From Siphonodentalium dalli (Eukaryota > Mollusca > Scaphopoda > Gadilida > Siphonodentaliidae): 64,000 bases of DNA. Below the pieces are notes generated by a model. It was not told the DNA's origin, made no database searches, and was given only the letters and a program-made list of their open reading frames with translations. Location: the NCBI GenBank assembly GCA_032622095.1, contig CP136065.1:246635474-246699473 (forward strand), written 5' to 3'. A program made the translations under genes and the position numbers. Of this stretch, positions 2,735 to 57,575 are shown one piece after another (positions within the stretch are counted from its first letter, which is position 1; every line of letters begins with the position of its first letter).

Positions 2735-3082
2735 TTTGATTGCAGTGTATTTGAGGCTCAGGTATATGATTGGTTGTTTTTGTTTGAATGCAGTGAATTT
2801 GAAGCTCAGGTATATGATTGGTTGTTTTTGTTTGAATGCAGTGTATTTGAAGCTCAGGTATATGATTGGTTGTTTTTGTGATTGCAGTGAATTTGAAGCT
2901 CAGGTATATGATTGGTTGTTTTTGTTTGATTGCAGAGTATTTGAGGCTCAGCTATATGATTGTGGTTCTTGCTGTGTATTTGAGGCTCAGGTATATGATT
3001 GGTTGTGGTTCTTGCAGTGTATTTGAGGCTCAGGTATATGATTGGTTGTTTTCATTTCTTGCAGTGTATATGAGGCTCCTGT
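2735..3082 (+). repeat. Tandem repeat of a 3' splice acceptor (8 units)
   Basis: Units of 46-48 bp (one interval of two units) run up to and include the true acceptor of the 3065 exon. Each has a T-rich tract, then ttgcag or atgcag, then 'tgtatttgaggctcaggt', matching the exon's first bases (tgtatatgaggctcct). Decoy AG dinucleotides end at 2745, 2793, 2841, 2887, 2935 and 3017. The copy near 2970 has lost its AG. The long open frames here are a by-product of the repeat. Confidence 0.85.
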
Positions 3083-3144
3083 TACTGTCAAATGGTGTGG
3101 TGTCGTTCCGGGTAAACCGACTGAGGCTCTAGCTATAGAAGCTG
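3065..3144 (+). CDS. Gene A, penultimate exon
   Basis: An 80-nt exon bounded by …tttcttgcag and g|gtatgt. With the two bases carried from 1662 it reads SVYEAPVTVKWCGVVPGK, then PTEALAIEA, and leaves one base for the exon at 3934. Phase continuity on both sides (2 in, 1 out) makes this call firm even though the exon is short. Its first bases are the seed of the tandem array just upstream. All spacings in that array shift frame unless multiplied, so use of a neighbouring decoy acceptor would normally disrupt the protein. The family is not recognised. Confidence 0.7.
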
Positions 3145-3305
3145 GTATGTAACTAAATCTACAATCTATGATATTCAAAACTCATCATAGAAAGAGCGTA
3201 GCATGAAACATGGAATCATCGATCACCTTCATAATTAAAAACTTCCACAAGTTAAAATTCATCCTAAAGTCGGTCTTTAAATGTTTTGTTTGTTTTATCT
3301 ACTCT

Positions 3306-3770
3306 TTAACCCTTTACCCAACAGAACGGCCCTGTGCCAATGCATTCTCTTATATATGCGAGCCGACCATAGGTCGCCTCGCATATATAAGAGAATGCAT
3401 TGGCTTAACACATATTAAAAATGATAAAATTGTCAAAGAATATAGAAAAATATTATAAAAATTGTTAAAAAATGTAAGAAAAAATTAAAAAATTGTTAAA
3501 GAATGTAAGAAAAAATGGTAAAAAGTGTTTAAAAAAAGAATTTTTTAGGCCAATGCATTCTCTTATATATGCGAGGCGACCTATGGTCGACTCGCATATA
3601 TAAGAGAATGCATTGGCACAGGGCATAACTGTAACCATCACAATGTGGTCAATGAACCGGTTCCAATGATATCCATATTTGTATGGTGTTATTGAGACAG
3701 ACCGAAGATATTTTAGGCTGTTGAAGCTTTATTTGGCCGGTTTTGGCCGTTTTGTTGGGTAAAGGGTTAA
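3306..3770. mobile_element. TTAA-flanked MITE (piggyBac-type termini) with two hairpins
   Basis: It begins ttaaccctttacccaacaga and ends gttgggtaaagggttaa, so TTAA flanks inverted termini that start CCCTTTACCCAAC. It contains two 67-nt near-perfect hairpins (3337-3403 and 3550-3616) joined by an A/T-rich spacer of short repeats (aaaattgttaaa, gtaagaaaaa). A unique 150-bp right part follows ('ccggttccaatgatatccat'). There is no ORF. It sits inside the last intron of gene A. TTAA target duplication and CCC termini are the known piggyBac signature, and assignment rests on that. Confidence 0.85.
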
Positions 3771-3933
3771 ACCAAAGACCTCTCTAAATAAAAATAAAAG
3801 GGTGTTCGGTTTGGAGAGGTTTTGCTGTATCTGTACATTCCCCAATTAACTTAATCGTCAGTGAGTATTTAGTCACCATCAAATTTTCTATGTCTGTTTC
3901 ATTTTCGCAATCAGTATTTCATTTATTTTCCAG

Positions 3934-4190
3934 TGGGACTCGTTGTTTCTGCCAATGTGAAAAAAATGGACAAGAATTATCGGGAGAACGTTTATTACTT
4001 CAAGGACAGAGGATCATTAGCGGGCGTGTTACCGATGGTCGGGCCGGGTCCCCGATCATTCTGTGTGAAGCACCTCAACGAAAACAAAGACGTTAACATT
4101 AAGAACAAAGATTTTGGATTAGCGGGACTGTATTTATTCATGAATGACGGACATGGATGCATTGTGGGAGTTTTACTCCATGCTGATTGA
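3934..4190 (+). CDS. Gene A, terminal exon with stop
   Basis: The acceptor is …atttattttccag. The first two bases complete a Val codon from the previous exon, then 84 codons run to TGA at 4188-4190. The peptide has a basic/polar start (KKMDKNYRENVYYFKD), a Gly/Pro-rich turn (GVLPMVGPGPRSF), then KNKDFGLAGLYLFMNDGHGC and the C-terminus IVGVLLHAD. A short unspliced tail and a nearby intergenic repeat zone fit a true gene end. No obvious AATAAA lies within about 150 bp; A-rich aataaa runs occur only near 4975-4995. I do not recognise the protein. Gly-rich strands suggest a compact beta domain. Confidence 0.7.
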
Positions 4191-4265
4191 CATCATTTTA
4201 CAGTTGATCAGGGTAGTTGGCCTCCATGGTAGAGCACACATTAACTGGTGTTTTACGGAACATCA

Positions 4266-4890
4266 GGCCAGTTTTGCCTTAATTAATACTCATTGATGAA
4301 CGATATTGGCTGGCACTTTACTGATGTTTGCAGCGGCTGACGTTCATTCATGACCGACATTAGCTGGAATTCTATTTTTGGTAAGATTCTCAATGGAAAC
4401 AGAACATAATTCCACCATTTATTAAAAATTTTGAAGAAGCAGAAACTTCCTTTGAAATAAGTAAAAACGAACCCATGTTACACAGGTTACAACCGGACAT
4501 GTATGCGTGAAACCGAAAGTACAAAATCATTGAACTTAAGCCAAGCCTTGAAATAGTGTGTCTGTCATTTGCAGAATGAGGTTCCCAGAGGGTGAATTTA
4601 GTGATGCTACCCCGCATAGCGGGCTAGCATCACCAAATTCACCCTCTAGGAACCTCATTCTACTGAGGTGTAAGCAGAATGAGGTCCCCAGAGGGTGAAT
4701 TTGGTGATGCTAGCCCGCAGTTTTGCCTTAATTAATACTCATTGATGAACGATATTGGCTGGCACTTTACTGATGGTTGCAGCGGCTGACCTTCATTCAT
4801 GACCGACATTAGCTGGAATTCTATTGTTGGTAAGATTCTCAATGGAAACAGAACAGAATTCCACCGTTTATTAAAAAAATTTAAGAGGCA
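4266..4890. repeat. ~450-bp tandem duplication carrying a foldback element
   Basis: The block starting 'cagttttgccttaattaat' at about 4268 recurs at about 4718. It includes 'gatattggctggcactttac' and 'tcaatggaaacagaaca' and differs at scattered bases. Between the copies lies a foldback element (4541-4722) with palindrome arms. The second foldback repeat is cut at 'gctagcccgcag', exactly where the duplicated block resumes. Confidence 0.75.
4541..4722. mobile_element. Foldback element, 3'-truncated
   Basis: It has the left terminus 'ccttgaaatagtgtgtctg', one complete palindrome (4571-4665) with an 'accccgcatagcgggc' centre, and the start of a second (4677-4722). The 253-bp complete copy at 51067-51320 shows what is missing. 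Confidence 0.75.
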
Positions 4891-6866
4891 GACAGAACAT
4901 TTAACTTGTAAATTGGCAATTTTTGAGAATTTTTTTCTGGAATTACAACACGACCTAGTTTAAAAAAATCAATATAAAATAAAAAATAAAATAAACCAAC
5001 TTTCTAATGGAATATATTCCAAGCCGACCTGCCAGATAAATATGTATTGTTTTCAATACCGCACAAAGTCACTTCCAGAAATATTTGCAACTCTCTAACT
5101 TTTGCTGTGGAGATTTGCATGGATATGCCCATTCAAAATTGGTCACTTGACCTCCTACTTATCATAAAGTATCCGTTAATTAGAAATGTTCACCAATGGG
5201 GCCTTACAATAAAGCTGCATGCTTGTGATTATACTTCTTTTATACTATAACATCAGCCTTTATAGTAAGGTTCACCAGAGTGTGAAAATAAATTAATATC
5301 AGTCACAGTTCACCACTGATCAGTCTTCAATCAGAGGGAACATCAAAAGTTACGGATGGTACATTCTGTGAATGTTAATGTGTGGGTATTTACGGTACCG
5401 GAAATAAGGAAATGCATGACATGGAGAAATCCCCACAAAGCACGAATATTCAAAAAATTAAATAAGATCATTTTTTTTATTATTTTGAACGCCCGGTTTT
5501 GCTGAATCCGGGAGAAATTGGGTGTTATCTTTATTTGCGGAATTGTCGTGGCTATCTGGGAGTCTCTAACAGCTCTGATATTTATGCACATTCCTGGCAA
5601 TTTTTCTAACAAATCAATAATTATAATGTCTCGGGACTGCAATCCCATGCACATTTATTCAGGTCTGCACAGTTGGTCTGCACATTCAATTTTATCAGGA
5701 TTTCCACCCTGCATGTTTATTTGGAAAATTAGAGTACCTTAATGTTATCTGACTGCAGCAATTAAGCCATAAAATAGTTGAAAAAATTAATTGTTTGCTA
5801 CATTATCTTGGTCATCTAATATAATTTCATGACATAATTAAATACAATTCATTTCCATGTTAATGCCACATAGTTTTGCTTTGTTGAGAAGTATCGTCAT
5901 TTCAACCACTGCCATATCACATCAGTTTTATTAGTAGATTTATGAAATGAGTCATGGTGTCTTCGGAGGTCGGTAGTCCAGTGGTTAGAGGTTTTAGCTC
6001 GTAGCGCTGTGAACACAGTAATATGAATTTGCCGCCCACTGGTGGACTACTGAGTTTCTCAACAGTGGATTGGTTAGATTAAACTGAGTGTGACTGTCGA
6101 GTCTTATGTAATCAATCTTTATATGGAAATAAAATTTGGAACATACTTCAGAGATATTAACCTGAAAGATTATGTTCAGCTTTTCAAACATTCTAGAATG
6201 ATTTGTGAGTGTGAAGAAGGGTTGAATCACATTTAGTCTATAATAAATAAACTACTAGATTATCATCCACTTTTTTATTTTGGAAAATTTTAGTCAGCAA
6301 TACCAGCAGGCAAATTTTATTTGTTATATTTATTTCATGCCAATAGCCATGGACACTTCTAGAAACTGAAGCAGTCTGCTTCTTTATATTATACCATGTT
6401 CTTTGAAACTGACAAATTTAACCAAGTTTGAGTGGTTGATGAGTTATTATAATGGTACTTGAAGATGATCATCTTTTCCTGGCATCACTTCCAGCAACTA
6501 TAAAATTTCTATGAAACTTGTTTTGAAGGCATGTTTGCACTGCTGTTCCAAAACAAACACACAAGAAACATCTGGTGTTAGAAATAGTTTGTAACGTTCT
6601 AAATATAGCCACAGTTCATAGAAAATATATCAGAAAAAATATTCCTAGTGAGAGAATATCCTCTGACTCAAAATTATTATTTTACCCCCCCCCCTCCAAT
6701 ACAGAAAGTCAAGGGAAGAGATATTCCATATTCCAAGTTTAACACTAATGAATGAGAAAACAAATTAACATCAAAGTTATCCAAATAAAAAAAATTGAGG
6801 ATGGAGTGAGATAGGGTCAGGAGATGATCAGGATCTAGTAATTTTTTATATTTTCCTGTGTTTGCC
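4891..6866. other. Intergenic sequence, mostly unassigned
   Basis: AT-rich unique-looking sequence. Apart from the SINE-like segment at 5965-6130 and a C9 run near 6687 I see no exon with acceptable splice sites, no RNA gene and no recognisable repeat. Confidence 0.4.
5965..6130 (+). mobile_element. SINE-like element with tRNA-type A box
   Basis: 'ggtagtccagtggttagagg' resembles a tRNA 5' half with an RNA polymerase III A box. It is followed by 'gccgcccactggtggactac' and 'gtgtgactgtcgagtctta'. A diverged second copy at 47070-47470 has the same order of segments, split by a TTAA MITE. The B box is not clear, so the copy is probably old. Confidence 0.5.
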
Positions 6867-8199: not shown

Positions 8200-9172
8200 C
8201 TTTTTATACGCCCGTTTGAAAAAACGGCCGTATTCAGTATAGTATTGGTCTGTCCGTCGTGCCGTCCGGGTGTCCGTCTGTTAACCTGGTTTCCGGATGA
8301 TAACTTTAGTTAGAGTGAACCAAATTTAATAAAATTTAGTATGTGGGTTTATTAGCCGAAAATTAAGTTCAAGTTCGAATTTGGGTTCCGCCCGCCAATT
8401 TTCACCGGAGTTATGCCCCTTATATGACGTTTTTTGACTTAGAAAATCCTTGAAATTTGTTGTCCGGATGATAACTTTAGTATAGTTTATCGGAATGAAT
8501 CCAAATTTGGTATATTACTTTCTCCCACCAAAACACAGGTCAAGTTCGAACTTGGGTTCTGTCCGACCATTTTTGGCAGAGTTATGCCCCTTTTTCGACT
8601 CAGAAAATTCAGTTTTTCTTATGTTTTTTGGTTTCCGGATGATAACTCGATTTTGGAATGTTTATATGCAAAACCCGTTTTTTTGTGGATTACATATATC
8701 GAAATACAGCTCAAGTCCGAATTTCGTTTTAATCCGAAAATTTTTGCGAGAGTTATGGCCCCTTTTTTGACGTAATTTGACTTAGAAAATCCCTGAAATT
8801 TGTTGTCCGGATGATAACTTTAGTTAGAGTGAACCGATTTCAATCAAATTTGGTATGTGGGTTTATTAGGAGAAAAGACAGCTCAAGTTCGAATTTGGGT
8901 TCCGTCCGCCAATTTTCACCGGAGTTATGCCCCTTATTTGACGTAATTTGACTTAGAAAATCCCTGAAATTTGTTGTCCGGATGATAACTTTACTAGAGC
9001 TTATCGGATTCAATGATAATTTGGTATATTACTTTCTCCCACCAAAACACAGGTCAAGTTCAAATTTGAGTTCCGTCCGCCAATTTTTACCAGAGTTATG
9101 CCCCTTTTTTACCAGTTTCCGCCGACCCAAGAGAGGGCGTATTTTGCACGCCCAGCGTAGCTCTTGTTTTGC
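8200..9172 (+). mobile_element. Pearl/HINE-like tandem-core element
   Basis: Left end 'cgcccgtttgaaaaaacggc', a gtccgtcgtgccgtccg microsatellite-like stretch, then imperfect core units. Each has 'gttgtccggatgataactt', 'aatttggtatgtgggttta', 'tcaagttcgaatttgggtt', 'ggagttatgcccctt' and 'gacttagaaaatcc'. The right end is 'gagggcgtattttgcacgcc' followed by 'agctcttgtt'. The same layout appears at 20790-22012 and 56265-56515. Confidence 0.8.
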
Positions 9173-14880: not shown

Positions 14881-14884
14881 TAAT

Positions 14885-20789: not shown

Positions 20790-22012
20790 TTCCACTCTTA
20801 TAATCTTTTTTGAAAAAAGGTAGTATTTTGTAATCAGTCTGTTCATCCGTCCGTCTGTTAACATTTTTTGTTTCTGATTGATAACTCGATCCAGTTTGGA
20901 ATATTTGATTAGAACCAAAGTTGGTATGTGTATTTCCCAGCTAAAAATACAGGCCAAGTTCAAATATGGGCTTTGTCCAATTATTTTTACATGAGTTACG
21001 GCCCTTTTTCGACTTAGAATTTGGCCGTCCGTTAACATTTTTGGTTTCTGACTGATAACTCCAGTTTGGATTATTTGATCTGAACCAAAGTTGGTATGTG
21101 TATTTCCCAGCTAAAGATATAGATGAAGTTCCAATGTGGGATCCGTCGAATTATTTTCACATGAATTACAGCCCTTTTCTACTTAGAATTTGACCGATTT
21201 CATAACATTTCGGTTTCCAAGTTTCCAACAGATAACTCCTGTTGGATTATTTTATCTGAACCAACGCTGGTATGTGTATTTCCCAGCTAAAACTACAGAC
21301 CAAGTTTGAATATGGGTTCTGTCCAATTAGTTTTACATGAGTTATGGCCATTTTTCCACTTAGAATTTTATTTCATTTTGGCATTGAAATTAGGGGTATA
21401 TCGGGGGGATTTTTTCCGGGCAGGTATGCCGGGGTGGATGGGTGGTCGATGGGACTAAATTTTTTTTTTTCCTGCAAGTTTTTTCACTGTTTTTGCAATG
21501 AGTTTGGCTTAAAACACCTTAGAATAAGTGAAATAATGTAATTCTAACTGCTAAACTGACTGCAGGCAGTTATCGTGTTGTATTTTGTTGCAAATTTTTA
21601 AATCCAAGGGCAGCCATGTTTTTTTGGCCGAATTACCCCAAAATGACTCGTTCCTATTTACATGTCAATGTTAACATCCATGACAAATAGTATGCACAGA
21701 AATTCATATACAGCTGTTTACAGTGAATTCCCCCCCCCCCCCCCGCAAATATCTGTTTTAGTGTTAAAAAGGGGGGGGGGGGTGTCCAAAAATGGTCAGA
21801 AAAAATTTTGGACACAGGGGTGGGTGGGTCCCAAACAAGGGTCGAAAGGTAAAAATCAGCATACGTGCCTGAATAAAATTTCCGACCCCCCCCCTCGGGT
21901 ATATCAGATATTCTTTGTAAGCTCAAATAATTATTTTATTTTGCAGTTGTACAATTCAAAATAGCTAAAGGGCGTATTTTGCTGCGCGTTAGCGATGCTC
22001 TTGTTGGACCTG
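20790..22012 (+). mobile_element. Composite pearl/HINE-like element
   Basis: Core units with 'gtttctgattgataactc', 'ccaaagttggtatgtgtat', 'ttcccagctaaa' and 'gacttagaatttg' repeat three times from 20870 to 21375, after a 'gttcatccgtccgtctgtt' tract. The right end 'aagggcgtattttgctgcgc' + 'gatgctcttgtt' matches the element at 8200-9172. At about 21595-21690 a reverse-complement fragment of the 1-1385 repeat ('ggcagccatgttttt…catgtcaatgttaacatcc') is inserted. C/G homopolymer runs at 21729-21742 and 21771-21783 follow. Confidence 0.7.
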
Positions 22013-23134: not shown

Positions 23135-24132
23135 GCTGATATTCTTAACAATGGGAGAGTGCACTGACGGAATTGATGCCCTTATTAGGCATCGGAGCCA
23201 GAGACCAACTTTTGTTCGAATGATTTCATGGGAAATGAGCAAAGATGTCATACCAAGAAAGCGGCATAGTTCTAAAACATCAAAGAAGCGACATCCATCT
23301 GCTGTCGGGGAGGTGACAAATGAAGAGGAGGATGAAATTCCAGATGACGATTTATCTGATTCGTATTCTGATGATAGCGTTTATTTAACAGCTGATGAGA
23401 GCCCCAATGAACATAGTGATGATGATTCTACAAGTGTCGGAACCGAGAGTGTTTCTGAATCGATAACATCATCTGTTAGTGCAGCCTCCACTGGCTGTGA
23501 CTCAACACCTTCAAAGGGACGTCAAAGGCGTTTGAGTAAGAAACAAAGAAAGGGCAAACGCAAACAATTTGAATTATTCTATTGTGATAGCTTATTTGTT
23601 AATGAAGATTTTTTTAATATCACTGGACTCAATGAATTAACGCTCAATGTTGATGAGTTACTGAATGAATCGCAGAGAGTTTCTGTGCATAAAAGTGTGC
23701 CTAGTCTTCTGGAAATTTGTTTGCAAGTAGCATGGAAAAGTGGATTGAAATTTGAGGAAACTCCACCTGGCTTGATGCCCCTTATACATTCTCATCGACA
23801 CAGTGGTAAATTCTCGTCCATGCAGCTGAAGACATTGCAAAATTATTTCAAAGATAAAGATGAGGACAATTTACTAACTGAAACCTGGCAAATGAACATT
23901 AACGGCAATTCTGAGAAAGAGAAGAAAATTCTGTGGAGAGCAAAAAGAAATGTATGGAACGAGCATGATATAGACTGTCCCTGGAGGTCGGGGTCAGAAC
24001 AAAACCTTCCATATCATGGTTCACTGATGACTTCATTTCTCCGATGGACATCAGAGCAAGCCTTGTTTATAAATTTAAATGTTAATGATACATCTTGTCA
24101 GGATTGGCATGTAACCATGGCAGCACTGTCAG
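23135..24132 (+). CDS. Gene B, large 5' exon (first recognised)
   Basis: The acceptor is …ttttatatttccag, with ATG at 23151 in 'acaatggga' and donor tcag|gtcagt. The exon encodes 327 residues plus one base. Residues 1-40 include ISWEMSKDVIPRKRH. About 57-104 is acidic and Ser-rich (NEEEDEIPDDDLSDSYSDDS). About 122-139 is a basic cluster (KGRQRRLSKKQRKGKRK), a likely nuclear or nucleic-acid-contact signal. From 150 the chain looks folded: FNITGLNELTLNVDELL, then VPSLLEICLQVAWKSG at 183-198, and WRAKRNVWNEHD further on. 'SLLEICLQVA' loosely fits the Elongin-BC box pattern ([TSP]Lxxx[CSA]xxx-hydrophobic), a weak hint only. Bases 23135-23150 may be 5' UTR or coding continuation. The one-base overhang continues exactly into 26671. 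The family is not recognised. Confidence 0.8.
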
Positions 24133-24850
24133 GTCAGTATTGTCTCAATGCAACAGATAATTTATTCAATTTGGTTTGAATGTTCTGCATCAGGTATTTA
24201 AATAACATAGCTTATATACTGTCACAAATATTTACTCTTTTTCAATAGTGTTCCTGGGCCTCATTAAAAATATCCTTATTTCCCCTCACCCTTGTTTAAG
24301 AGTGAGTATAGCTGTATGTAGTTAAATAAATTTTCTTTACCTTTACCGATATAGGTTCAATAACTGTTACTTGAGATTTGTCCAGATATAAAAGTGTGTA
24401 TGATATACAGTAGATCTCAGAATTGGCATGTTACCATGGCAGCAATGTTAGGTCAGTATTGTCTCAGTGTTAAGTAGCGTTCAGATGACTGCTTTACGTT
24501 CGTTTGTTGCGTTGGATCTGTTGAACCGCTTATACACGTTGCAGGTGCAATTACACCCGTCTTCTGAATTGTGAGAGAAAATAAGTGCTCTCACTGTGTT
24601 TTCCTCGTGGGAAGGAAACCCAATGTGCCAACCCACAACAAATGCTCATCTGAACACTACTAACAAATTGCTTAAATTTGGTTAGAAGGTATCGGATCAG
24701 GTCAAGTTTTCAACTGACATAGTTTATATACAATGTACTCTCACAGATATTTATATCCTTTTGAAACAGTGTTTTTAGGTCACATTAACAGTTATCTTTG
24801 TTTCTCCTCACTTTACCTTATGTTCCAAGGCTGGCGGTCTAGAAAATCCA
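24105..24850 (+). repeat. Diverged duplication of exon end, donor and intron start
   Basis: The exon end plus intron start at 24105-24160 ('ggcatgtaaccatggcag', 'tcaggtcagtattgtctca') recurs at about 24424-24472 ('ggcatgttaccatggcag', 'ttaggtcagtattgtctca'). Following intron sequence recurs too: 'tagtgttcctgggcctcatta' at about 24247 versus 'cagtgtttttaggtcacatta' at about 24768. The second copy keeps a plausible GTCAGT donor but has no acceptor of its own. Confidence 0.75.
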
Positions 24851-26670: not shown

Positions 26671-26809
26671 CTGTCGGGCATGCCATCGATTTAATGTTGC
26701 CTTCAACCATGTCACACAGAACCAAGAAAATATGTGCCACAGATCAGAACTTACTGGAACAGAATCTGAAAGCTGCTGCATCTCGAGTGAAAACTGCTCT
26801 TAAGGCGAG
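26671..26809 (+). CDS. Gene B exon 2 (recovered by phase)
   Basis: The acceptor is …tatttcgacacag and the donor gcgag|gtgcgt. The 139-nt exon reads, with the carried base, AVGHAIDLMLPSTMSHRTKK, then ICATDQNLLEQNLKAAASRV and KTALKA, ending two bases into an Arg codon completed by the first G of the 28868 exon. It was found because the 23135 and 28868 exons do not join in frame without it. Both junctions fit perfectly, which is strong support. The predicted structure is helical. Tandem, decayed copies of its 3' end and donor follow at 26830-27185. Confidence 0.8.
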
Positions 26810-27218: not shown

Positions 27219-28745
27219 CTTAAAGACCCTTCATGTGTGTACCGTTAGACTCTTCATGTGTGTACCGTTACACTCTTCATGTGTGTACTGTTAGACTCTT
27301 CATGTGTGTACCGTTAGACTCTTCATGTGTGTACCGTTAGACACTTCATGTGTGTACCGTTAGACACTTCATGTGTGTACCGTTAGACTCTTCATGTGTG
27401 TACCGTTAGACTCTTCATGTGTGTACCGCAAGCCTGGATATAAGAGGTCGGACACGGTTATTGACCGAGCCAAATAAACCGATGACCGGCACCGCCTTAT
27501 TATCGTCCGTCAGTTTGTCCGGCGCCCATTATCTTCACAAAAAATATATAATTAAGGGGAAAACAACAAGTAGATGTATTATCCGCGGCAAAGACATTCA
27601 ATTACCACTACTGTGCACTAAATATCAAATCCCCCCACCAATACAACGCGTTTTACCGAAAACATGTTAATGATCCATTCCATATACAGGACCTAACCTA
27701 TAAATGTAATTTTAATGCAACCTCTAACCTAAATTGTCCGCAATTGATGATTGCGGTAATGAATGTTAATCACGAATGTTTTGACACGCTTAAAACGCGA
27801 TGAGATGTTCGCATCTGTGTTGTTTCTGACCATCGTGAGTGTCACAAATAAATGTTTTAATTAACTTAAAAGACCGCCGTCCCGCTTTTCAGATATAAAA
27901 CAATTACGACATTATCAGAGTATGTACCAGGCGCTTCGGAAGATCGTTTCGGTAACGCGTCGCACTTTTTGAAGAGACCGCGTCGCACTTTTTGAAGAGA
28001 CCGCTTCCGTAAATAAATGTCAAATTTATTGCTTTAATCGGATTATACCAGTGATGTTGGCATTAATTAAGGGAGGCCATTAATTAATAAAAGCTTTAGC
28101 AATAAAACTAAAAGCTTTTGCAACTCCTTTGTTAGTTAGTCCTTATTGTTTATTTTAGCGGACACCCACATTGGAATGGGCTAAAAAACAACTAATTGCT
28201 GCTATTTATTGATACCAGGTAAATGACAGATACACTTTTCAAATGTCAGACGCCGAATCTTTGGTGCCTGTCATTTTGTCAGACACTCAAAAAAAAATTA
28301 TATCCAGGCTTGGTGTACCGTTGTGTGTTTACTTTATGTGTGTACCGTTAGACTCTTCATGTGTGTACCGTTAGACTCTTCATGTGTGTACCATTGTGTG
28401 TGCTCTTCACATGTGTACCGTTAGACTCTTCATGTGTGTACCATTGTGTGTTCTCTTCATGTGTGTACCGTTAGACTCTTCATGTGTGTACCATTGTGTG
28501 TGCTCTTCACATGTGTACCGTTAGACACTTCATGTGTGTACGATTGTGTGTGCTCTTCACATGTGTGCCGTTAGACACTTCATGTGTGTACCATTGTGTG
28601 TTCTCTTCATGTGTGCACTTTTGTGTGCTCTCTTCATGTATGCACCATTGTGTGTTCTCTTCATGTGTGTACCATTGTGTTCTCTTCATGTGTGTACCGT
28701 TGTGTACACTCTTCATGTGTGCACCGCTGTGTGTTCTCTTCATAA
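27219..28745 (+). repeat. Minisatellite 'cttcatgtgtgtaccgttag', split by an insertion
   Basis: About 23-bp units 'gactcttcatgtgtgtaccg' run 27235-27428. After the 884-bp hAT-type insertion (27429-28312) the array resumes at 28313 and continues to about 28745 with variant units (…accattgtgtgttctcttca). Opposite-strand and forward frames of 78-98 codons in this stretch are repeat artefacts. The array lies in the intron between gene B exons 26671 and 28868. Confidence 0.9.
27429..28312. mobile_element. hAT-type non-autonomous element in the minisatellite
   Basis: The terminal inverted repeats CAAGCCTGGATATAA / TTATATCCAGGCTTG are perfect over 15 bp. The flanks are GTGTACCG on both sides (27421-27428 and 28313-28320), an 8-bp duplication typical of hAT. 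Because GTGTACCG is part of every minisatellite unit, the duplication is suggestive rather than proof. No transposase frame; the 83-codon frame at 27419-27670 crosses the boundary and is not called. Confidence 0.75.
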
Positions 28746-28867
28746 TGTGCTATTTTATTTCAGATCGTCACTTATTATAACATGCTGGGACATTCTGTGG
28801 TGAATTAGAGTCACCTCCCTTACTGTGCTTGAAGATGAGGTTGTATGTCATTCCCATTCCATTTCAG

Positions 28868-28986
28868 GTTTTCATTTCTAATTGACAAGTTATTTGATGA
28901 AGCATTAGCATACGTCTGTTGGGCGAGAGGCAATGTCAGCCAAGCCTCGGATATGTTGGTAAAGATCGCGGACAAAGAAGAACTTT
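28868..28986 (+). CDS. Gene B exon 3
   Basis: The acceptor is …cattccatttcag and the donor cttt|gtgagt. The 119-nt exon reads RFSFLIDKLFDEALAYVCWA, then RGNVSQASDMLVKIADKEEL, and leaves one base. The pattern (aromatic/small residues spaced as A..Y..WA.GN...A) is that of a TPR-like helix pair. Joined to the next exon, the segment YLEKALLLSEIGRMYSQLDD gives a second helix pair. The open frame past the donor to 29180 is intron. Confidence 0.8.
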
Positions 28987-31981: not shown

Positions 31982-32174
31982 ATCTAGAAAAAGCTTTACT
32001 GCTATCAGAGATTGGTCGAATGTACTCTCAGTTAGATGACTCTCAGTTGGCGACAAAGTTCATCCGTCTGGCATCAGAAGCTGCCCACGAAGCTGGTCGA
32101 GTTGATACAGATAAAGATTTCAATGACATTAATCATCAAATGTTACATCTGCTGGCGAATGTTCATGATCAAGG
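31982..32174 (+). CDS. Gene B exon 4 (TPR-like)
   Basis: The acceptor is …acacatttacag and the donor aagg|gttagt. The 193-nt exon completes a Tyr codon and reads LEKALLLSEIGRMYSQLDDS, then QLATKFIRLASEAAHEAGRV and DTDKDFNDINHQMLHLLANV. The L..A..L..IG..YSQL repeat followed by QLA..FI.LASEAAHEAG is a convincing TPR-type helix-turn-helix by eye. Phase 2 in and 2 out fit the neighbours. The role is unknown; TPR regions generally mediate protein-protein contacts. Confidence 0.85.
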
Positions 32175-33181: not shown

Positions 33182-33321
33182 GTTGATGACTGAAACCAAA
33201 TGCAGGGAATCTAAAGCTCTGTGGTCATCAGTAATTAACAGCGGCTACAAACAAATAAGTACCCCCTCATACCTCGCGGCCTTCGATGCTCTGCTGTGCT
33301 TCCATTCTGGGACATTCCCTG
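33182..33321 (+). CDS. Gene B exon 5
   Basis: The acceptor is …tttttactctag and the donor ccctg|gtaagt. The 140-nt exon reads LMTETKCRESKALWSSVINS, then GYKQISTPSYLAAFDALLCF and HSGTFP, with one base carried each way. Helical with YLAAFDALL. The last 20 nt of the exon plus the donor are the seed of the ~50-bp tandem array that follows. Confidence 0.8.
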
Positions 33322-33862
33322 GTAAGTTAGAGTTACCTTCCTTACTATGGGACATTCCCTGATGATTGAGAGTTACCTCCCTTATTGTGCTTCCTTGTTG
33401 GGACATTTCCAGGTGAGATAGAATTACCTCCCATTCTGTGATTCCATGCTGGGACATTCCCTGGTGAGTTACATCTCTTACCGTGCTTTCATGGTGGGAC
33501 AGTCTCGGGTGAGTTAGAGTTACCTCCCTTACTGCTCTTCCATGATGGGACATTCCCTGGTGAGTTACATCTCTTAGCGTGCTTTCATGGTGGGACAGTC
33601 TCAGGTGAGTTAGAGTTACCTCCCTTACTGCTCTTCCATGATGGGACATTCCCTGGTGAGTTAGAGTTACCTCCCTTAGTGTGCTTCCATGCTGTGAAAT
33701 TCCTTGATTAGTTAAGAGTTACATCCCTTACTCTGCTTCCATTCTAGAACATTCCCTGGTGATTTAGAGTTACCTCCCCATATTGTGTTTCCATTATGGG
33801 ACATTCCCTGGTAAGTTAGAGTTACCACCCTTACTGTGATTCCATTCCAATTCTCATTATTT
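33305..33862 (+). repeat. Tandem repeat of a 5' splice donor junction (about 11 units)
   Basis: Unit of about 50 bp: 'ttccatnntgggacattccctg|gt(a/g)agtt' then 'agagttacctcccttactgt'. The first unit is the true exon 5 end and donor. At least six later copies retain GTGAGT or GTAAGT after the same exon-like bases (about 33409, 33462, 33508, 33559, 33604, 33653, 33810). Others are altered (ccctgatgat, ccttgattag). A single diverged unit also occurs at 28780-28830. The minus-strand 134-codon frame over this array is an artefact. Confidence 0.85.
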
Positions 33863-36086: not shown

Positions 36087-36237
36087 GAGGTGACATTGAC
36101 TGGCTGAAGGAAGCGGAAGATAAACTGAATAAAGCCGTTAAAAAGAGGATTCCCCTTAATATGCATTATTCATTCATTCTGGCATGGCTTGGGAAGACAG
36201 AAGAATCTAATTTAGCATTTATAAAGCTCTCTTATGG
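36087..36237 (+). CDS. Gene B exon 6
   Basis: The acceptor is …cttacctattacag and the donor tatgg|gtaagg. The 151-nt exon reads GDIDWLKEAEDKLNKAVKKR, then IPLNMHYSFILAWLGKTEES and NLAFIKLSY. The A..KLNKAVKK start plus Y.F.LAWLGK…A is again TPR-like. Phases 2 in and 2 out fit exon 5 and exon 7. Confidence 0.85.
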
Positions 36238-37504: not shown

Positions 37505-37630
37505 AATCAAGTCCTTATTTACAGTACTCAGTGGCAGCTGTCATATCGAAAGTCTGATGTGTGATAAATGTGTCTAATATTTACAGTGCTCAAGGGCAGG
37601 CATCCTACAAGATGTCCAGTGTGTGGGATC
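37505..37630 (+). repeat. Duplicated acceptor junction of exon 7
   Basis: 'tatttacagtactcagtggc' at about 37517 aligns with the true junction 'tatttacagtgctcaagggc' at 37578-37597. Similarity continues at moderate identity into the exon-like part ('gtctgatgtgtg' versus 'gtccagtgtgtg'). The two junctions are about 69 bp apart, so this is a decayed two-copy tandem duplication. Confidence 0.6.
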
Positions 37631-37724
37631 CATTAATAAATGAGGTGTTTAGGCGGAAGAGTGAAGTGCGGCCACTCAAGGTCATCTGGAGGACACAACT
37701 TCAGCCATATTGTCTGAGTGAAAC
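37587..37724 (+). CDS. Gene B exon 7
   Basis: The acceptor is …gtctaatatttacag and the donor aaac|gtgagt. The 138-nt exon reads AQGQASYKMSSVWDPLINEV, then FRRKSEVRPLKVIWRTQLQP and YCLSE. Phases 1 in and 2 out are correct. Arg/Lys-rich with two Trp. Not recognised. Confidence 0.8.
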
Positions 37725-37964: not shown

Positions 37965-38093
37965 GCCAATATCTCTAGCTGATTTGTGTAGCACCCAAAT
38001 TAACCTGCGTTTCACTGTCGACGGATACCTCACTGGGGATATGCAGCAGTTACTTCCTCCGGTCAGGGGAGTGTACCTTGATCCACATACCGG
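37965..38093 (+). CDS. Gene B exon 8
   Basis: The acceptor is …tttatatttccag and the donor accgg|gtaaga. The 129-nt exon reads PISLADLCSTQINLRFTVDG, then YLTGDMQQLLPPVRGVYLDP and HT. The 649-bp unit 37974-38622, which starts 9 nt inside this exon, is repeated at once at 38623-39271. Only this first copy has a proper acceptor. Confidence 0.85.
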
Positions 38094-38205
38094 GTAAGAA
38101 TTACTTCCCCTGTGAGGGGAGTGTACCTCGATCCACATACCGGTTAAGAATTACTTCCCCTGTCAGGGGAGTGTACCTCTATCCACATACCAGTTGAGAA
38201 TTGTT
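38040..38205 (+). repeat. Triplicated donor junction of exon 8
   Basis: The true 'ccacataccgg|gtaaga' end is followed by two ~55-bp copies: 'ttacttcccctgtgagggga…cataccggttaaga' and '…cataccagttgaga'. In both, the GT at the homologous position is lost or shifted (gtaaga to ttaaga/ttgaga). The same three lie in the second 649-bp copy at 38689-38854. Confidence 0.8.
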
Positions 38206-38622
38206 CCCATGAATCTTGCTGAAACAAAACTGAGCTACAGTGTAATGGACAATTTTCCATGTTACTTCAGCAGGAGAAAAATGGGTGGTATAATGGGTTG
38301 ATCGACTTATTCACAAGTGATGATGTTGAGATTGGTCTAAATTGTATTTGTGAGCTGCAGATGAATTTCTGTCAGTCACCTCACATATATTTCTGTCCAT
38401 TTCTGTCCATCTGTACAATATCATCGAATCAAATTTATTACATTTTCTGCATCCCACAAGTGTGTTTTCTACATATCTGTACCATGTGACACTATTTGAA
38501 CCAATCTTTAAATGTCGACATGATGGGTGCACTATATTTGGCAAGACCGCTTCAATAGTTTGTGTAACCACAGTTTTGACTCGATGCTTATTGATTAACC
38601 ACACTATGTCCAATCTGACAAT

Positions 38623-38742
38623 TCTAGCTGATTTGTGTAGCACCCAAATTAACCTGCGTTTCACTGTCGACGGATACCTCACTGGGGATATGCAGCAGTT
38701 ACTTCCTCCGGTCAGGGGAGTGTACCTTGATCCACATACCGG
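38623..38742 (+). pseudogene. Second copy of exon 8, without its acceptor
   Basis: Encodes the same LADLCSTQINLRFTVDGYLT and following residues with an intact gtaaga donor. The duplication starts inside the exon, so the upstream bases are 'caatctgacaattctag' with no polypyrimidine tract. Inclusion would need a cryptic AG. It is probably spliced out as intron. Confidence 0.7.
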
Positions 38743-39339
38743 GTAAGAATTACTTCCCCTGTGAGGGGAGTGTACCTCGATCCACATACCGGTTAAGAAT
38801 TACTTCCCCTGTCAGGGGAGTGTACCTCTATCCACATACCAGTTGAGAATTGTTCCCATGAATCTTGCTGAAACAAAACTGAGCTACAGTGTAATGGACA
38901 ATTTTCCATGTTACTTCAGCAGGAGAAAAATGGGTGGTATAATGGGTTGATCGACTTATTCACAAGTGATGATGTTGAGATTGGTCTAAATTGTATTTGT
39001 GAGCTGCAGATGAATTTCTGTCAGTCACCTCACATATATTTCTGTCCATTTCTGTCCATCTGTACAATATCATCGAATCAAATTTATTACATTTTCTGCA
39101 TCCCACAAGTGTGTTTTCTACATATCTGTACCATGTGACACTATTTGAACCAATCTTTAAATGTCGACATGATGGGTGCACTATATTTGGCAAGACCGCT
39201 TCAATAGTTTGTGTAACCACAGTTTTGACTCGATGCTTATTGATTAACCACACTATGTCCAATCTGACAATAAAATTGATGTTTATTAGACTGATACCAT
39301 ATTATAACAAAGATCTCAATATTTTGATATATTGATTTA

Positions 39340-39976
39340 TTATACCCCCCCCCCCCCCCCCCCCCCCGCAACGAAGTTATGGGGGGTATACTGGAGTCAG
39401 CTTGTCCATCCATCCGTCCGTCGTCCGTCCGTCCGTCTATGGACACAAATTTGTCCGGAGTTTTTCTCAGTCGTTTTTTGATCAATTTCCGTGAAACTTG
39501 GCACAGACATCAACTACCATGGGAACCTGTGCACCTGCGATGATGACGTCTGTCCGACATTTTTTGGTGGAGTTATCCCCCCTTTTTCGACTTAGAATTT
39601 TTTTGCAACATGCATAATTTTGTCCGAGCTTTTATTCCTACATTTTTCGGTCAATGTTTTTTAGATCTTGGCACTGATATTTAGTACCATGGGAACCTGT
39701 GCACCTGCGATTATGACGTCTGTCTGACATTTTTTGTGTGGAGTTATTCCCCTTTTTCGACTTAGAATTTTTTTCGCAACATGCATAATTTTGTCCAAGC
39801 TTTTATTCCTACATTTTTCGGTTAATAGGTTTAAGATTAGGGTTATGGTTGTACACCTGCAATGGGAACTGTTATTTTATTATTTTAACTAAATGTTTAC
39901 TGACATGTGAAGCATCTTAGTATTTTAAAAACAGGGGGGTATCCGTAGTCCCATTGGGACAGTCACACCTCTAGTT
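39340..39976 (+). mobile_element. Pearl/HINE-like element with poly-C start
   Basis: A C-run of about 23 (39344-39367) is followed by 'gcaacgaagttatggggggt', a (gtcc)n tract (39405-39440), and core units 'gtgaaacttggcacagacat', 'ccatgggaacctgtgcacc', 'ttttcgacttagaattttt'. The end is 'ggggggtatccgtagtccca' + 'gtcacacctctagtt'. A near-identical element is at 60450-61257. The start and end 'tacccccc'/'ggggggta' are complementary. Confidence 0.85.
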
Positions 39977-39984
39977 GACTTTAA

Positions 39985-40575
39985 TATTCCACACCCCACT
40001 AAATTTAACATGCACCCCACTAAATTTAACCTGCACCCAACTAAATTTAACATGCACCCTACTAAATTTAACATGCACCCCCACTAAATTTAACCTGCAC
40101 TAAATTTAACATGCACCCCACTAAATTTAACATGCACCCCACTAAATTTAACCTGCACCCTACTAAATTTAACAATACCCCACTAAATTTAACCTGCACC
40201 CCATTAAATTTAACAATACCCCACTAAATTTTATCTGCACCCCACTAAATTTAACCTGCACCGCACTAAATTTAACCTGCACCCCACTAAATTTAACATG
40301 CACCCCACTAAATTTAACAATACCCCACTAAATTTAACCTGCACCCCACTAAATTTAACAATATCCCACTAAATTTAACCTGCACCCACTAAATTTAACC
40401 TGCACCCCACTATATTTAACCTGCACCCCACTAAATTTAACAATACCCCACTAAATTTAACCTGCACCCCATTAAATTTAACAATACCCCACTAATTTTA
40501 TCTGCACCCCACTAAATTTAACCTGCACCGCACTAAATTTAAACTGCACCCCATTAAATTTAACCTAGACCCACT
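39985..40575 (+). repeat. Minisatellite 'ccccactaaatttaacctg'
   Basis: About 29 units of 17-22 bp, built from 'actaaatttaacctgcaccc', 'actaaatttaacatgcaccc' and 'actaaatttaacaatacccc'. Higher-order alternation of the three variants suggests stepwise amplification. It lies directly after the pearl/HINE-like element, in the intron between exons 8 and 9. Confidence 0.9.
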
Positions 40576-40654
40576 AAATTGAATGTGTACTTCACTACTT
40601 CCTGGTCAGGGGATTGTCTGCAACTCACAAGTAGGTCGCCTCACAATTGTATCT

Positions 40655-40900
40655 GCAGGATAGTGCCGTCTGTCTATTTGTACACCTCCGTCTGTCCATC
40701 CGGGCATATATCTCTTGGGTTATCTGAATGAAATTTTGTCTGGAAGTTCACCAGCATGACTGAGGTGAAAACGATGTTCACATTTTTCATTCTGGAGTTA
40801 TCCTTCTTTGTTTGGGTTCTGTCATGCCTATTTTTCAATTTGGCATCGTGCAGATATGCCAACACCAGAGGTGCAAACTTCTTGTTGAGACAGAGATGAG
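40655..40900 (+). repeat. Single pearl/HINE-like unit
   Basis: 'ctccgtctgtccatccgggc', 'atatctcttgggttatctga' and 'tcacatttttcattctggag' match the 30480-30960 repeat. The end is 'caacaccagaggtgcaaac'. Confidence 0.6.
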
Positions 40901-41205
40901 CGACAGTGTTATTGATGCTTGTTCCTTTGCTTTTTTAACCAGGCAGAGAATAGTTCACTCAAATCCCCATGAGAAAAAATGAACTACATTTCTATTGACA
41001 CTTTCATTTGTTTTGACCAGGCAGAGAATAGCTTGATCAACTCCTGGTGATAAAGAAATGAGCTGAATTGTCATTGACACTTTTTTCTTAGGCCAAAGAA
41101 TTATTCAATCAAATCATTTGAGACAGAGATGAGCGACCGTGTTATTGATGCTTGTGCTTTTTTTGTTTTCACCAGACAGAGAATAGTTCGATCAAATCCT
41201 GGTGA
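40885..41205 (+). repeat. Tandem copies of exon 9 acceptor junction
   Basis: Before the true acceptor (caccag|acagagaatagttcgatcaa, 41176) two copies keep an acceptor-like start: 'accaggcagagaatagttca' (about 40939) and 'accaggcagagaatagcttg' (about 41018). A third is decayed: 'ttaggccaaagaattattca' (about 41090). The intronic part 'gagacagagatgagcgac' + 'tgttattgatgcttgt' also recurs (about 40888 and 41122). Confidence 0.85.
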
Positions 41206-41258
41206 CACAGAAACATGGTTGGACTCTTATGAATGGCTTCAAAAGGTCATCTCCACAG
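41176..41258 (+). CDS. Gene B exon 9
   Basis: The acceptor is …tttgttttcaccag and the donor cacag|gttaga. The 83-nt exon reads QRIVRSNPGDTETWLDSYEW, then LQKVIST, with phases 1 in and 1 out. The decoy copies upstream would continue into stops or different frames. Both exon neighbours join in frame. Confidence 0.8.
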
Positions 41259-47036: not shown

Positions 47037-47069
47037 GTTAGTCAAGAATAATTAACTATTTTAGTTTAG

Positions 47070-53915: not shown

Positions 53916-54156
53916 TCCCCAGAGGGTAAATTTGGTATGCTAGCCTGCTGTGCGGGATAGCATCACTAAATTCACCATCTGGGGACCTCATTCTGCAATT
54001 GTCAGACTCACTATATCGAAGGGAAGGGTTAATTTAATTTTAGATATATATTTTCTGTTCAGAAACATGTCACCTAGGTATGAGTTATCTCCCTTTGTAT
54101 CTCAACAGTTCAGAAAATATATCGAGTTTACTATAAACACACACACATCAGTGGCA

Positions 54157-54411
54157 GTAACTCTTTCATGACTGGAGCTTCATGGAATTATGCGAAAACC
54201 CTGTGCCAATGCTTTCTCTTATATATGCGAGTCTCCCATAGGGAACCTTGCATATACATTAACCTAACAATATTTACCTTGACCTTATAAGCCAGTGCAT
54301 TCTCGTATATATGTGAGGCTCCCTATGGGAAACTCGCATATATAAGAGAATGCACTGGCACACGATATTTAATGCTGCTCCAGCTCAGCTCCCATCATGA
54401 AAGGATTTTAA
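54157..54411. mobile_element. Degraded TTAA-type MITE with hairpins
   Basis: 'taactctttcatgactggag' and 'cccatcatgaaaggatttta' are decayed versions of the 47176 termini. A broken hairpin lies at about 54208-54255 and an intact 67-nt one at 54292-54358 ('ccagtgcattctcgtatata'). Confidence 0.75.
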
Positions 54412-54556
54412 ATATTTTGAATTGATAGCTTGGAGGAACTAAGATATCTGTAAAGGTGAAAAAATTGGTCACTTCAGTGTGAACCCTTGTTGGCAATTGG
54501 CCAATTCTGCCTCCAACAGTGCAAAACCCTGTTGAACATATTTTCCAAAATTTCAG

Positions 54557-54757
54557 AGGTTGGAACGTTACGTCAAAGCCTTCCTTCAGAAACTTGAAAG
54601 TAAAAAGGAGAAAGACAAAGTCCCAGATGAGAAGAAATTTTTCCGAGAAAAAATAAAGGATGACTATGATTTTGATGTGACGATTGAAGCCATACAACAA
54701 TATGGCAAAACGCTCTTCATACAACTGTGTGGACTTGACTATGGTCAAGTTAATTTC
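54557..54757 (+). CDS. Orphan exon, possibly gene B
   Basis: The acceptor is …ccaaaatttcag and the donor atttc|gtaagt. The 201-nt exon is phase 0 on both sides and reads RLERYVKAFLQKLESKKEKD, then KVPDEKKFFREKIKDDYDFD, VTIEAIQQYGKTLFIQLCGL and DYGQVNF. It is charged and helical, then a hydrophobic segment. It cannot join exon 48844-48901 directly (phase 1 to 0), so at least one exon is missing in between or it belongs to another gene. Not recognised. Confidence 0.65.
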
Positions 54758-54879
54758 GTAAGTAGAGCACATTTACAATTTCGGAGGAAGTGCATTGTAC
54801 TGTCCCAATATAATGGCAGATCCATTGTATGTCAATATTCAAATCCATTTTTCATTTTTCACACATTCATTTGACTTGA

Positions 54880-55123
54880 AAATCTCTCCCAACTTGCATA
54901 ATTTTGTCCCAGCTTGTATTCCTACTTTTTTGTGTCAATTTTTTGAAAACTTGGCACAGATATTTAGTACCATGGGAAACTGTATACTTGTCCGACTTTT
55001 TTTGAGTGGAGTTATCCCCCTTATTCTACTTAGAAACAGTTTGCAACATGCATAATTTTGTCTGAGCTTGTATTCCTTGTTTTTTTTCTCGAAAAACAAG
55101 TTTGTTAATATAGCCCATTTGGG
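54880..55123 (+). repeat. Partial pearl/HINE-like unit before the gap
   Basis: 'cataattttgtcccagcttg', 'ttggcacagatatttagtac' and 'catgggaaactgtatacttg' match the core of the 39340 and 60450 elements. It runs into the scaffold gap. Confidence 0.7.
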
Positions 55124-55223
55124 NNNNNNNNNNNNNNNNNNNNNNNNNNNNNNNNNNNNNNNNNNNNNNNNNNNNNNNNNNNNNNNNNNNNNNNNNNNNN
55201 NNNNNNNNNNNNNNNNNNNNNNN
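55124..55223. other. Assembly gap (100 N)
   Basis: Exactly 100 undetermined bases, the usual fixed-size scaffold gap. The true length is unknown, and the two sides may not be immediate neighbours. Confidence 0.99.
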
Positions 55224-55821
55224 AAATCATGAAATATTAATTATCCTTGCGAAAATATCTAAGTGACATCTGGAAACTAATAAGTTAATATTGTTACGCC
55301 ATTATCAAATTACAATCTGTCATAAAAAGCATGCATATTATTTTGAATGTATCGGTTTTGACAAATAGCCACAAAATATCTGTCGTGATTCACATTTGTC
55401 TGATTAAGCTATTGTCTTACACTTGGTGCTCATAAACCTTGACCGTCATAAATACAATGCATCATAAACATGCATTGTGCAGGAGCCCCCGTGAGTGACC
55501 AGACAGACAATGGGGGATTAGCGGATTAATTTAAAATAAAGACTTTTGCTGTTTCGTGCAGAGTTAGTGGTTTCCCTTTGTACTGTCCGCGATCGGGTTT
55601 CCCTTTGTACAGTCGGTGATATATTCCCACTTACGATGTTTTTGGACTAGATCGTTCACATCACAGAATTGAAAACCCACTTGCCAAAAATTCATGCTTT
55701 CATTCTCCATTTGGGGTAAAAAAAAAGTTTAGCCAAAAGTTTAGCCAAATGAAATTTTTATTAGCCAAATTCGAAAAAGATTAGCCATTGGCTAATTTGG
55801 CTACCGACAGCGCGAACACTG
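55224..55821. mobile_element. hAT-type element, second copy, left part lost in gap
   Basis: Follows the 52580 element from 'ttatccttgcgaaaatatct' to its end 'cagcgcgaacactg' at 55821, with internal deletions (for example around 55560, where the zinc-finger segment is missing). The gap probably arose because two similar copies lie within 3 kb. Confidence 0.85.
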
Positions 55822-56264
55822 GTTACGTGTGTGACACAAAAATTGTTATGTGTGTGACCTTCTGAAAAAATCATAAATGGTAACTAGAAAAGCTAGCATT
55901 TATTAATAATCAGGGAGATGCTAATTGTTGCGAGTGAATAAAATCTTGTTCCTTTATATATTGACACATTTTAAACATATGAACCCTGTTATCTCCAGAA
56001 ACTGTTATGTGTGTGACAGATATACGAACGGTATATTATACAATGAGTCAATCTGCATAAAATGTATTCTGAAAAGCACTAGAGTTTACACTTTTATCCA
56101 GATATCAGTTGGTAGGCAAACTGTATAGTACTTCAAGTATTCTTTTACTTGTATCATACTTCATTTATGTTACATCTATATATATATTAAAAACTCCAAT
56201 TCCAACATGCATACAAGTACATGTTTGTGTAAAAATATGATATAATAAATATGGGATCAATTTT
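55822..56264. other. Unassigned sequence after the second hAT copy
   Basis: 'ttatgtgtgtgaca/c' occurs three times (55847, 56007 and a variant at 55826). Otherwise no feature seen. Confidence 0.35.
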
Positions 56265-56600
56265 GAATGCCCGTTTTTAAAAATGGGACATATTATGTGA
56301 TTTGTCTGCCTGTCTGTCCGTCCATCCCGTTTGCATCTGGCTTCCGTATGATAACTTTAGATAGTCTCACTGAATAACAATTTTGATATGTATGGCAAAA
56401 TACAGGTCAAGTTCAAATTTGTGTCCCCCCCCCACCAATATTCAGACAGTTATTGCCCTTTGTTGGAATTACAATGGGTATTTTCTGCCAAGCCCTATAG
56501 TGATGCTCTTGTAAAAAATAATTCAATAAACGTTTAGTCTGTTGTGTTGCTTGGAATACAAGCAACCCCCCCCCCCCCCGCCCATATATTAAGGGTGTCA
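56265..56600 (+). repeat. Short pearl/HINE-like element
   Basis: 'gcccgtttttaaaaatggga' start, 'ctgtctgtccgtccatcccg', one core unit ('gtatgataactttagatagt', 'caggtcaagttcaaatttgt') and end 'tgatgctcttgt', as in 8200-9172. A C17 run lies at 56563-56579. Confidence 0.7.
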
Positions 56601-56774
56601 CATAACTATTGCGCGCTTATCCTGATTATGTTTACATTTGGTCCACAATTTACATGTGAACTACATGACCATATAACAACGGCACTTACAATGGTCACTT
56701 TATACATTGACCAAACCTTAACACAATAATTGTATTAACTAAACTTATTTAAAGAGATACGTACAAATCACTCT

Positions 56775-57575
56775 TTTAGGAGAGACGTGTACCTTGTATG
56801 ATTTAGGAGAGCCGGAGCATTTCTATAACGCATTTGAGGGCAGTGATTGATATTTCAGCTTGTACCGTATATGTTATTAGGAGAGATGTGTACCTTGTAT
56901 GATTTAGGAGAGACGGAGCATTTCTATAACTCATTTGAAGGCAGTGATCGATATTTCAGATTGTACCTTATATGATTTTAGGAGAGATGTGTACCTTGTA
57001 TGATTTAGGAGAGACGGAGCATTTCTATAACACATTGAAGGCAGTGATCGATATTTCAGCTTGTACCTTATATGATTTTAGGAGAGATGTGTACCGTGTA
57101 TGATTTAGGAGAGACGGAGTATTTCTATAAACACATTTGAAGGCAGCGATCGATATTTCAGATTGTATTGTGTATGATTTTAGGAGATACGTTACCATGT
57201 ATGATTTTAGGAGAGACGGTGCATTTCTATAACACATTTGAGGGCAGTGATTGATATTTCAGCTTGTACATTGTATGATTTTAGGAAAGACGGATGGGAG
57301 CATTTCTATACCTCGTTTGTACCGTGTATGTTTTTAGGAGAGATGGAGCATTTCAGTAATGCGTTTGAGGGCAGTGATAGATATTTCAGCTTGTACATTG
57401 TATGATGTTAGGAGAAATGGGCCATTTCTATAACGCATTTGAGGCAGTGATAGATATTTCAGCTTGTACATTGTATGATGTTAGGAGAAATGGGCCATTT
57501 CTATAACGCATTTGAGGCAGTGATAGATATTTCAGCTTGTACCCGTGTATCATTTTAGGAGAGACAGAGAATTTC
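56775..57575 (+). repeat. Tandem repeat of the SLC7 exon acceptor junction
   Basis: Units of about 85-120 bp hold 'tgtatgattttaggagagac' (acceptor + exon start), 'gagcatttctataacgcatt', 'tgagggcagtgatngatatt' and 'tcagcttgtacc'. They are variants of the real exon's 5' half ('ttttag|gagagacagaga', 'aacgcgtttgagggcagtga'). About nine copies precede the true exon. Each copy reproduces a T-rich tract + AG and about 60 nt of exon-like sequence, then returns to intron-like sequence. Confidence 0.85.

Follow-up and report, generated by a model that had tools for sequence, protein, structure and literature searches.

Why should tandem repeats lie across the ends of exons, so that each new copy brings a splice junction with it, and do they lie there more often than chance would place them? 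These questions are raised by a 64-kb stretch of DNA from one assembly (the window), in which repeats spanning the exon-intron boundary had been claimed at eight sites. We mapped 22 boundaries in three genes (A, B and C) in the window, where further exons were possibly missed. Clear local copies of an exon end together with adjoining intron were found at six of the 22, split evenly between acceptors (3065, 41176 and 57559) and donors (24132, 33321 and 38093), and thus both junction types are affected. These features are very probably mirages, that is, minisatellite-like tandem duplications straddling exon-intron junctions, which would arise by recurrent local duplication and be retained where the outer site stays used.

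Tandem Repeats Finder detected the arrays at 3065, 57559, 33321 and 38093, and self-comparison added those at 24132 and 41176. Each unit contains coding sequence of its own gene, in the lengths given below.

2730..3078, forward strand: acceptor array at 3065 (349 bp), with seven upstream copies, each joining the end of the intron to 14 nt of exon start; periods 48/94 bp.
24098..24469, forward strand: donor 24132 and its single downstream copy (24417-24469), 53 bp at 91%, 319 bp apart; 35 nt of coding sequence in the unit.
33294..33847, forward strand: donor array at 33321 (554 bp), 28 nt of exon end plus intron, with 10 downstream copies; periods 51/96 bp (higher-order dimer).
28781..28830, forward strand: isolated copy of the donor unit from 33321 (blastn: 50 bp at 88%, E 4e-13).
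38050..38202, forward strand: donor array at 38093, three 50-bp units with 44 nt of coding sequence, both intronic units having GT changed to TT.
37974..39271, forward strand: 649-bp exact tandem duplication (37974-38622 and 38623-39271), 100% identity.
40885..41213, forward strand: acceptor repeats before 41176, an 82-bp match at 88%, with 24 to 38 nt from the start of the exon.
56774..57599, forward strand: acceptor array at 57559 (826 bp), upstream copies with 41 nt of exon start; periods 73/101 bp.

The repeat at 24132 is a separated pair with an offset of 319 bp, not a head-to-tail array, and its duplication cluster extends to 24811 through additional diverged similarity. AG was kept in 6 of 7 copies at 3065 and in all 11 aligned copies at 57559, and GT in 8 of 10 copies at 33321. 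The 649-bp pair starts 9 nt into exon 8 of gene B (the middle gene), carries donor 38093 with its array, and shows no shared bases at its breakpoints. We rejected an origin of the arrays by transposon capture, since their units contain the gene's own exon end. Anatomy, source in the own exon end, range of divergence, higher-order structure and mostly intact dinucleotides are thus matters of direct observation.

Individual sites were compared with a control scan of AG sites (n = 311, 130 of them away from repeats) and GT sites (n = 61, 26 away from repeats) with a reach of 300 nt. None of the 130 AG controls away from repeats was as good as 3065, 41176 or 57559, and none of the 26 GT controls was as good as 33321 or 38093. 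Unrestricted controls equalled the scores of these five sites in 6.6 to 14.8% of cases, as some of them lie inside repeats, including the present arrays. Donor 24132 was missed by the scan since its copy sits 319 nt away. The remaining two sites of the original prediction did not reach this level. Acceptor 37587 has one diverged upstream copy (37508-37542, 24 of 36 positions), which was equalled by 3.1% of the 130 AG controls away from repeats and by 14.5% of all 311, and its repeat is weak. The repeat at donor 26809, equalled by 19% of the 26 GT controls away from repeats and by 34% of all 61, is indistinguishable from background. Acceptor 28868, a site outside that prediction, is a chance-level candidate as well (24 of 36; equalled by 13% of controls away from repeats).

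Exons were found by a score of splice signals and codon use trained on the exons implied by the original prediction, on which the first pass was thus partly dependent; exon 28868-28986 was recognised by eye.

3065..3144, forward strand: gene A exon (acceptor 3065, score 6.6; donor 3144, score 3.8; 26-codon open frame).
23135..24132, forward strand: gene B, exon 1 of the mapped chain.
26671..26809, forward strand: gene B, exon 2.
28868..28986, forward strand: gene B, exon 3, which completes the open frame; bounds absent from the original prediction.
31982..32174, forward strand: gene B, exon 4.
33182..33321, forward strand: gene B, exon 5.
36087..36237, forward strand: gene B, exon 6.
37587..37724, forward strand: gene B, exon 7.
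37965..38093, forward strand: gene B, exon 8.
41176..41258, forward strand: gene B, exon 9.
57559..57658, forward strand: gene C exon, matching b(0,+)-type amino acid transporters (SLC7A9-like) by phmmer against PDB.

The nine phase-matched exons of gene B join into a single open frame of 696 codons with no stop, and the remaining two frames of the joined exons hold 75 and 43 stops. Because the joined exons are open in one frame only, the 18 boundaries of gene B are strongly supported; acceptor 23135 and donor 41258, the outer bounds of the chain, lie beyond the reach of this join test. It is this 696-codon frame that argues for use of the outer junctions. The gene C exon matched the PDB chains 6yup_D (E 7.7e-10) and 6li9_B (E 8.3e-10) in phmmer. 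For the gene A exon, no Pfam match was obtained and the best PDB match had E 4; judged from its splice signals and short open frame, it is a plausible exon. All eight coordinates first proposed are therefore real or plausible boundaries: six fall within the nine-exon frame of gene B, 57559 is placed by homology, and 3065 by the splice signals and short frame just described. Searches of gene B against Pfam (six exons singly and the joined 696 aa) returned nothing above the curated cut-off, and against PDB (one exon singly and the joined 696 aa) the joined protein gave four matches with E 0.19 to 0.80, which are not meaningful. A motif scan for additional SLC7 exons gave four matches, none of them transporter-like. 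The window contained no RNA family at gathering thresholds and no tRNA by a bacterial-code search. Gene content and the long spliced genes mark it as animal DNA. Its GC content is ~37%, lying between 35 and 39% in each 4-kb slice; this composition and the internal tandem repeats of ~150-171 bp described below look molluscan. Scans of viral contigs for three short repeat patterns gave no match.

The copies always lie on the intronic side, as the original prediction had stated. Copies stand downstream of donors and upstream of acceptors because the exon keeps its original form only with the outermost junction: splicing at an inner one would bring intron sequence into the message, and therefore the alleles that keep the exon show their copies in the intron. 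The intronic position is a logical consequence of tandem duplication plus an intact exon and not a result, so the direction was correctly described yet is uninformative, and we rejected it as evidence for a special role since geometry forces it.

We propose that the arrays would begin with a local tandem duplication of ~50 to 650 bp, with one breakpoint at the exon edge and the other in the intron. Slippage or unequal exchange could then enlarge and homogenise the array and give rise to higher-order units. An allele would survive only with splicing at the outermost junction, i.e. the first donor or the last acceptor, and the copies would thereby end up in the intron, where the duplicated junctions would be by-products, either ignored by splicing or feeding low-level unproductive splicing. 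In this scheme we infer the chemistry of duplication, the action of selection, splicing that is normal or tolerates the copies, and whatever preference there is for junctions. The arrays themselves differ widely in divergence, from 100% identity in the 649-bp pair and 91% among the 38093 units to ~80 to 91% in the remaining best pairs. Periods are composite (48 + 94, 51 + 96 and 73 + 101 bp), and the presence of such higher-order periods (94/48, 96/51, 101/73) points to later amplification of composite units. In the 33321 array, moreover, the outermost copy is nearest to the true junction (33 of 36 positions, vs 27 to 32 in the other nine), a pattern to be expected where homogenisation does not reach the edges of an array, as the amphioxus globin paper reports for BflGb6 (PMC3087553). 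We read the composite periods and the likeness of the outermost 33321 copy as ordinary minisatellite turnover.

Whether exon edges are hit beyond chance was assessed with the duplication clusters found by self-comparison (offset ≤700, score ≥38 bits). There were 34 clusters, six of which cross a boundary; 16 of the 34 were labelled transposon-like by eye, without a library, and the tests were run with and without these. The 60-nt tests leave the 649-bp cluster out of the edge hits, since 120 nt of it are exon. Under a null in which exons must stay intact, a crossing of an exon edge by 5-60 nt was seen in 5 of 34 clusters, where 0.68 were expected (P 5.4e-4), and in 6 of 34 when up to 125 nt were allowed (1.31 expected, P 0.0017). 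With the transposon-like clusters removed, 18 were left, of which five crossed within the 60-nt limit (0.36 expected, P 2.2e-5) and six within the 125-nt limit (0.70 expected, P 4.2e-5). Joint rotation of all clusters reached six crossings in 0.14% of shifts, or in 0.05% without the transposon-like ones. Gene B alone (11 clusters, or 8) gave P 0.011 to 0.035, and leaving out the gene A exon gave P 0.00025 to 0.0065. When the intact-exon rule was dropped and the transposon-like clusters were removed, 6 of 18 crossings were observed against 1.66 (P 0.0035). A position-by-position coverage test, which placed the donor of exon 3 at 28985 instead of 28986 (the position used in the cluster tests and the control scan), flagged 5 to 8 of the 22 boundaries at the 0.10 level in nine settings (P 0.00088 to 0.062); the boundaries flagged vary by setting, and the eight of the largest set take in 28868 and 32174, neither of them in the original prediction, but not 24132 or 41176. 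All these P values are guides only, because the pattern was picked after inspecting this one window. An excess at junctions over chance is likely, albeit unproven.

Several results weigh against the reading of these features as recurrent junction duplications beyond chance. Among the eight sites proposed, 26809 drops out and 37587 is weak. With no intact-exon rule and all clusters kept, the six crossings compare with 3.42 expected (P 0.12). When 11 imaginary array-free exons were added, P ranged from 0.00082 to 0.069, one test thus standing at 0.069. The coverage test gave no significant result at the 0.05 level (2 to 3 of 22 boundaries, P 0.095 to 0.30) or at the 0.02 level (0 to 1 of 22). 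The stray 33321 unit, which lies 4.5 kb upstream of its array in the intron just before exon 3 and <40 nt from the exon 3 acceptor, is unaccounted for by simple tandem duplication or slippage. The 649-bp identical pair could be very recent or an assembly error, and the latter option belongs here too. Edge hits exceed the intact-exon nulls but, over all clusters, not unconditioned placement.

These figures bear on two rival accounts of where the duplications fall. One is that tandem duplications are uniform and several merely happen to lie at exon edges here, with no targeting of junctions; the unconditioned P of 0.12 and the coverage result at the 0.05 level fit it, as does the fact that the pattern was chosen post hoc in a single window. 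We consider this account possible but rather improbable, given the P values of 5.4e-4 (34 clusters) and 2.2e-5 (18 clusters) under the intact-exon null, those for gene B alone, and the several amphioxus genes reported to have similar arrays. The other, to which we give about the same modest weight, is that junctions are mutational hot spots, where transcription-linked breaks, R-loops or nucleosome edges start duplications at exon ends. The donor of exon 8 was struck twice (by the 50-bp array and by the 649-bp duplication), and edge hits exceed uniform placement under the intact-exon nulls in the window, which is why a break-prone junction can be entertained; one window cannot establish it. Against such hot spots, the repeated stretches stop 14 to 120 nt within exons and not at the splice signal, and 14 of the 22 boundaries have no claimed copy. 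Among the three explanations put forward in the original prediction, tolerance of duplications only where the coding end is preserved is the best supported, because it alone accounts for the intronic side of the copies; the break-prone junction is a tentative option, and the buffering of splice sites finds no support in the decoy junctions described below.

A further account is that the decoy junctions are selected for splicing, either as a buffer against mutation of the true site or for regulated unproductive splicing. The listing of decoys comprised 42 copies, 14 of which (at 57559) came from a pattern itself requiring AG, and dinucleotide counts were taken from the alignment instead. The dinucleotide was intact in 31 of 39 aligned copies at the eight proposed junctions (20 of 21 acceptor and 11 of 18 donor copies). 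Some decoys match or outscore the true site: up to 8.7 vs 6.6 at 33321 and up to 2.0 vs 1.8 at 57559. At the other six proposed junctions, the true site is top-scoring or tied. In the gapless, hand-picked acceptor copies from the six clear sites (n = 18, nine of them selected by an AG-containing pattern and so biased), A was kept in 17 and G in 18, about equal to the three columns adjoining the AG (16, 18 and 18 of 18). In the gapless donor copies (n = 13), G was kept in nine and T in all 13; the donor G does no better than its neighbours, most of which exceed it. At 38093, GT is left in just one of five copies. There is thus no sign of special protection of the decoy dinucleotides. Moreover, 34 of the 35 intact decoys add a stop and 24 of the 35 shift the length by a non-multiple of three, where the added stretch was read in the frame of the known exon, so that the stop counts are approximate for frame-shifting decoys. 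Only the decoy at 41092 is listed as intact, in frame and open (+84 nt), and it is a candidate alternative acceptor; functional alternative exon ends would leave readable transcripts, and one intact decoy in 35 would do so. Since 34 of 35 intact decoys add a stop and only 9 of 13 gapless donor copies retain their G, the site-buffering role is unsupported, and selection for splicing appears very unlikely.

Equally remote is the idea that the introns were born by tandem duplication of an exonic AG-GT segment, the arrays being relics of that event. Excerpts of the globin paper do offer mirages as a route of intron gain (PMC3087553). The comparison of intron ends covered the eight introns of gene B, genes A and C having no mapped partner exon, and none of the eight carries a common unit at its two ends, the matches seen between them being chance-like and 8 to 9 nt long. 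These introns therefore carry no sign of a duplication origin. They are 240 to 3082 bp long, several with other repeats; in one of them (38094-41175) each end has repeats, and the unit at one end differs from that at the other.

The window holds other repeats as well. In the intron preceding the exon at 41176, ~28 copies of a 21-bp unit occupy 39992-40597 and leave the exon untouched. Within 27224-28743, a 23-bp minisatellite (27224-27428 and 28313-28743) is split by ~880 bp of sequence that differs from it and is perhaps an inserted element. Arrays of ~150-171-bp units at 52-1239, 8292-9110, 20851-21368 and 62011-63302 resemble what we take to be core repeats of mobile elements. The 100 N at 55124-55223 mark an assembly gap.

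Beyond the window, one may ask whether junctions outside cephalochordates are preferred sites of duplication genome-wide, with about a quarter of junctions carrying mirages that supply decoys and raw material for new exons or introns and that reflect transcription- or chromatin-linked breaks at exon ends; we regard this extension as doubtful. If the source of this DNA is not a cephalochordate, mirages would reach a new lineage and be wider than reported in the excerpts of PMC3087553 and PMC3902484. As far as those excerpts go, both papers treat mirages gene by gene in amphioxus, and a dense set allows the rate of duplication at junctions to be asked against that in introns. Such a set also bears on how splicing ignores strong duplicate sites and on the frequency with which duplicated junctions turn into new exons or introns. 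Among the matches listed in the literature searched, descriptions of mirages were recognised in PMC3087553 and PMC3902484 only, by which their absence outside cephalochordates is not established; PMC7710358 was set aside as a mirage report, as the word occurs there merely in an unrelated reference title.

Among known systems, ordinary intronic minisatellites resemble the present arrays in period, higher-order units and divergence between copies, but the unit here takes in the junction as well as the coding sequence beside it. In a study of human segmental duplications, internal tandem repeats reportedly alter gene structure among paralogs. Tandem duplication also reportedly copies splice signals in intron gain, as in the proto-splice site model (Rogers; Gao and Lynch), cited in PMC3087553, and in the potato RdRp case (PMC4974935). 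In those cases a new intron is created, whereas here no gene B intron has a shared end unit and no new exon-exon junction is evident. The closest counterparts are the mirages of amphioxus, which the excerpts describe in Adh3, the globins BflGb6 and BflGb9 and PGBD5, with further loci cited (PMC3087553, PMC3902484); lancelet PGBD5 has junction repeats of 60 and 108 bp, and Adh and troponin C are cited in the same paper (PMC3902484). According to the same extracts, their units of 10 to 160 bp cross intron-exon boundaries at 5' or 3' junctions, AG/GT is intact in many, not all, copies, and the exon is preserved (PMC3087553, PMC3902484). The globin paper adds haplotypes with 6 and 3 units, RT-PCR suggesting that regular splicing is undisturbed, and a proposed model of intron gain (PMC3087553). 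Boundary-spanning tandem units, both junction types and retention of AG/GT in many but not all copies are all found here. The present case differs in having six clear examples within 64 kb, a 649-bp exact duplication and a unit 4.5 kb away, and in being known from sequence alone. The phenomenon is therefore already known, and the set described here most likely joins the mirages of amphioxus as one of their kind.

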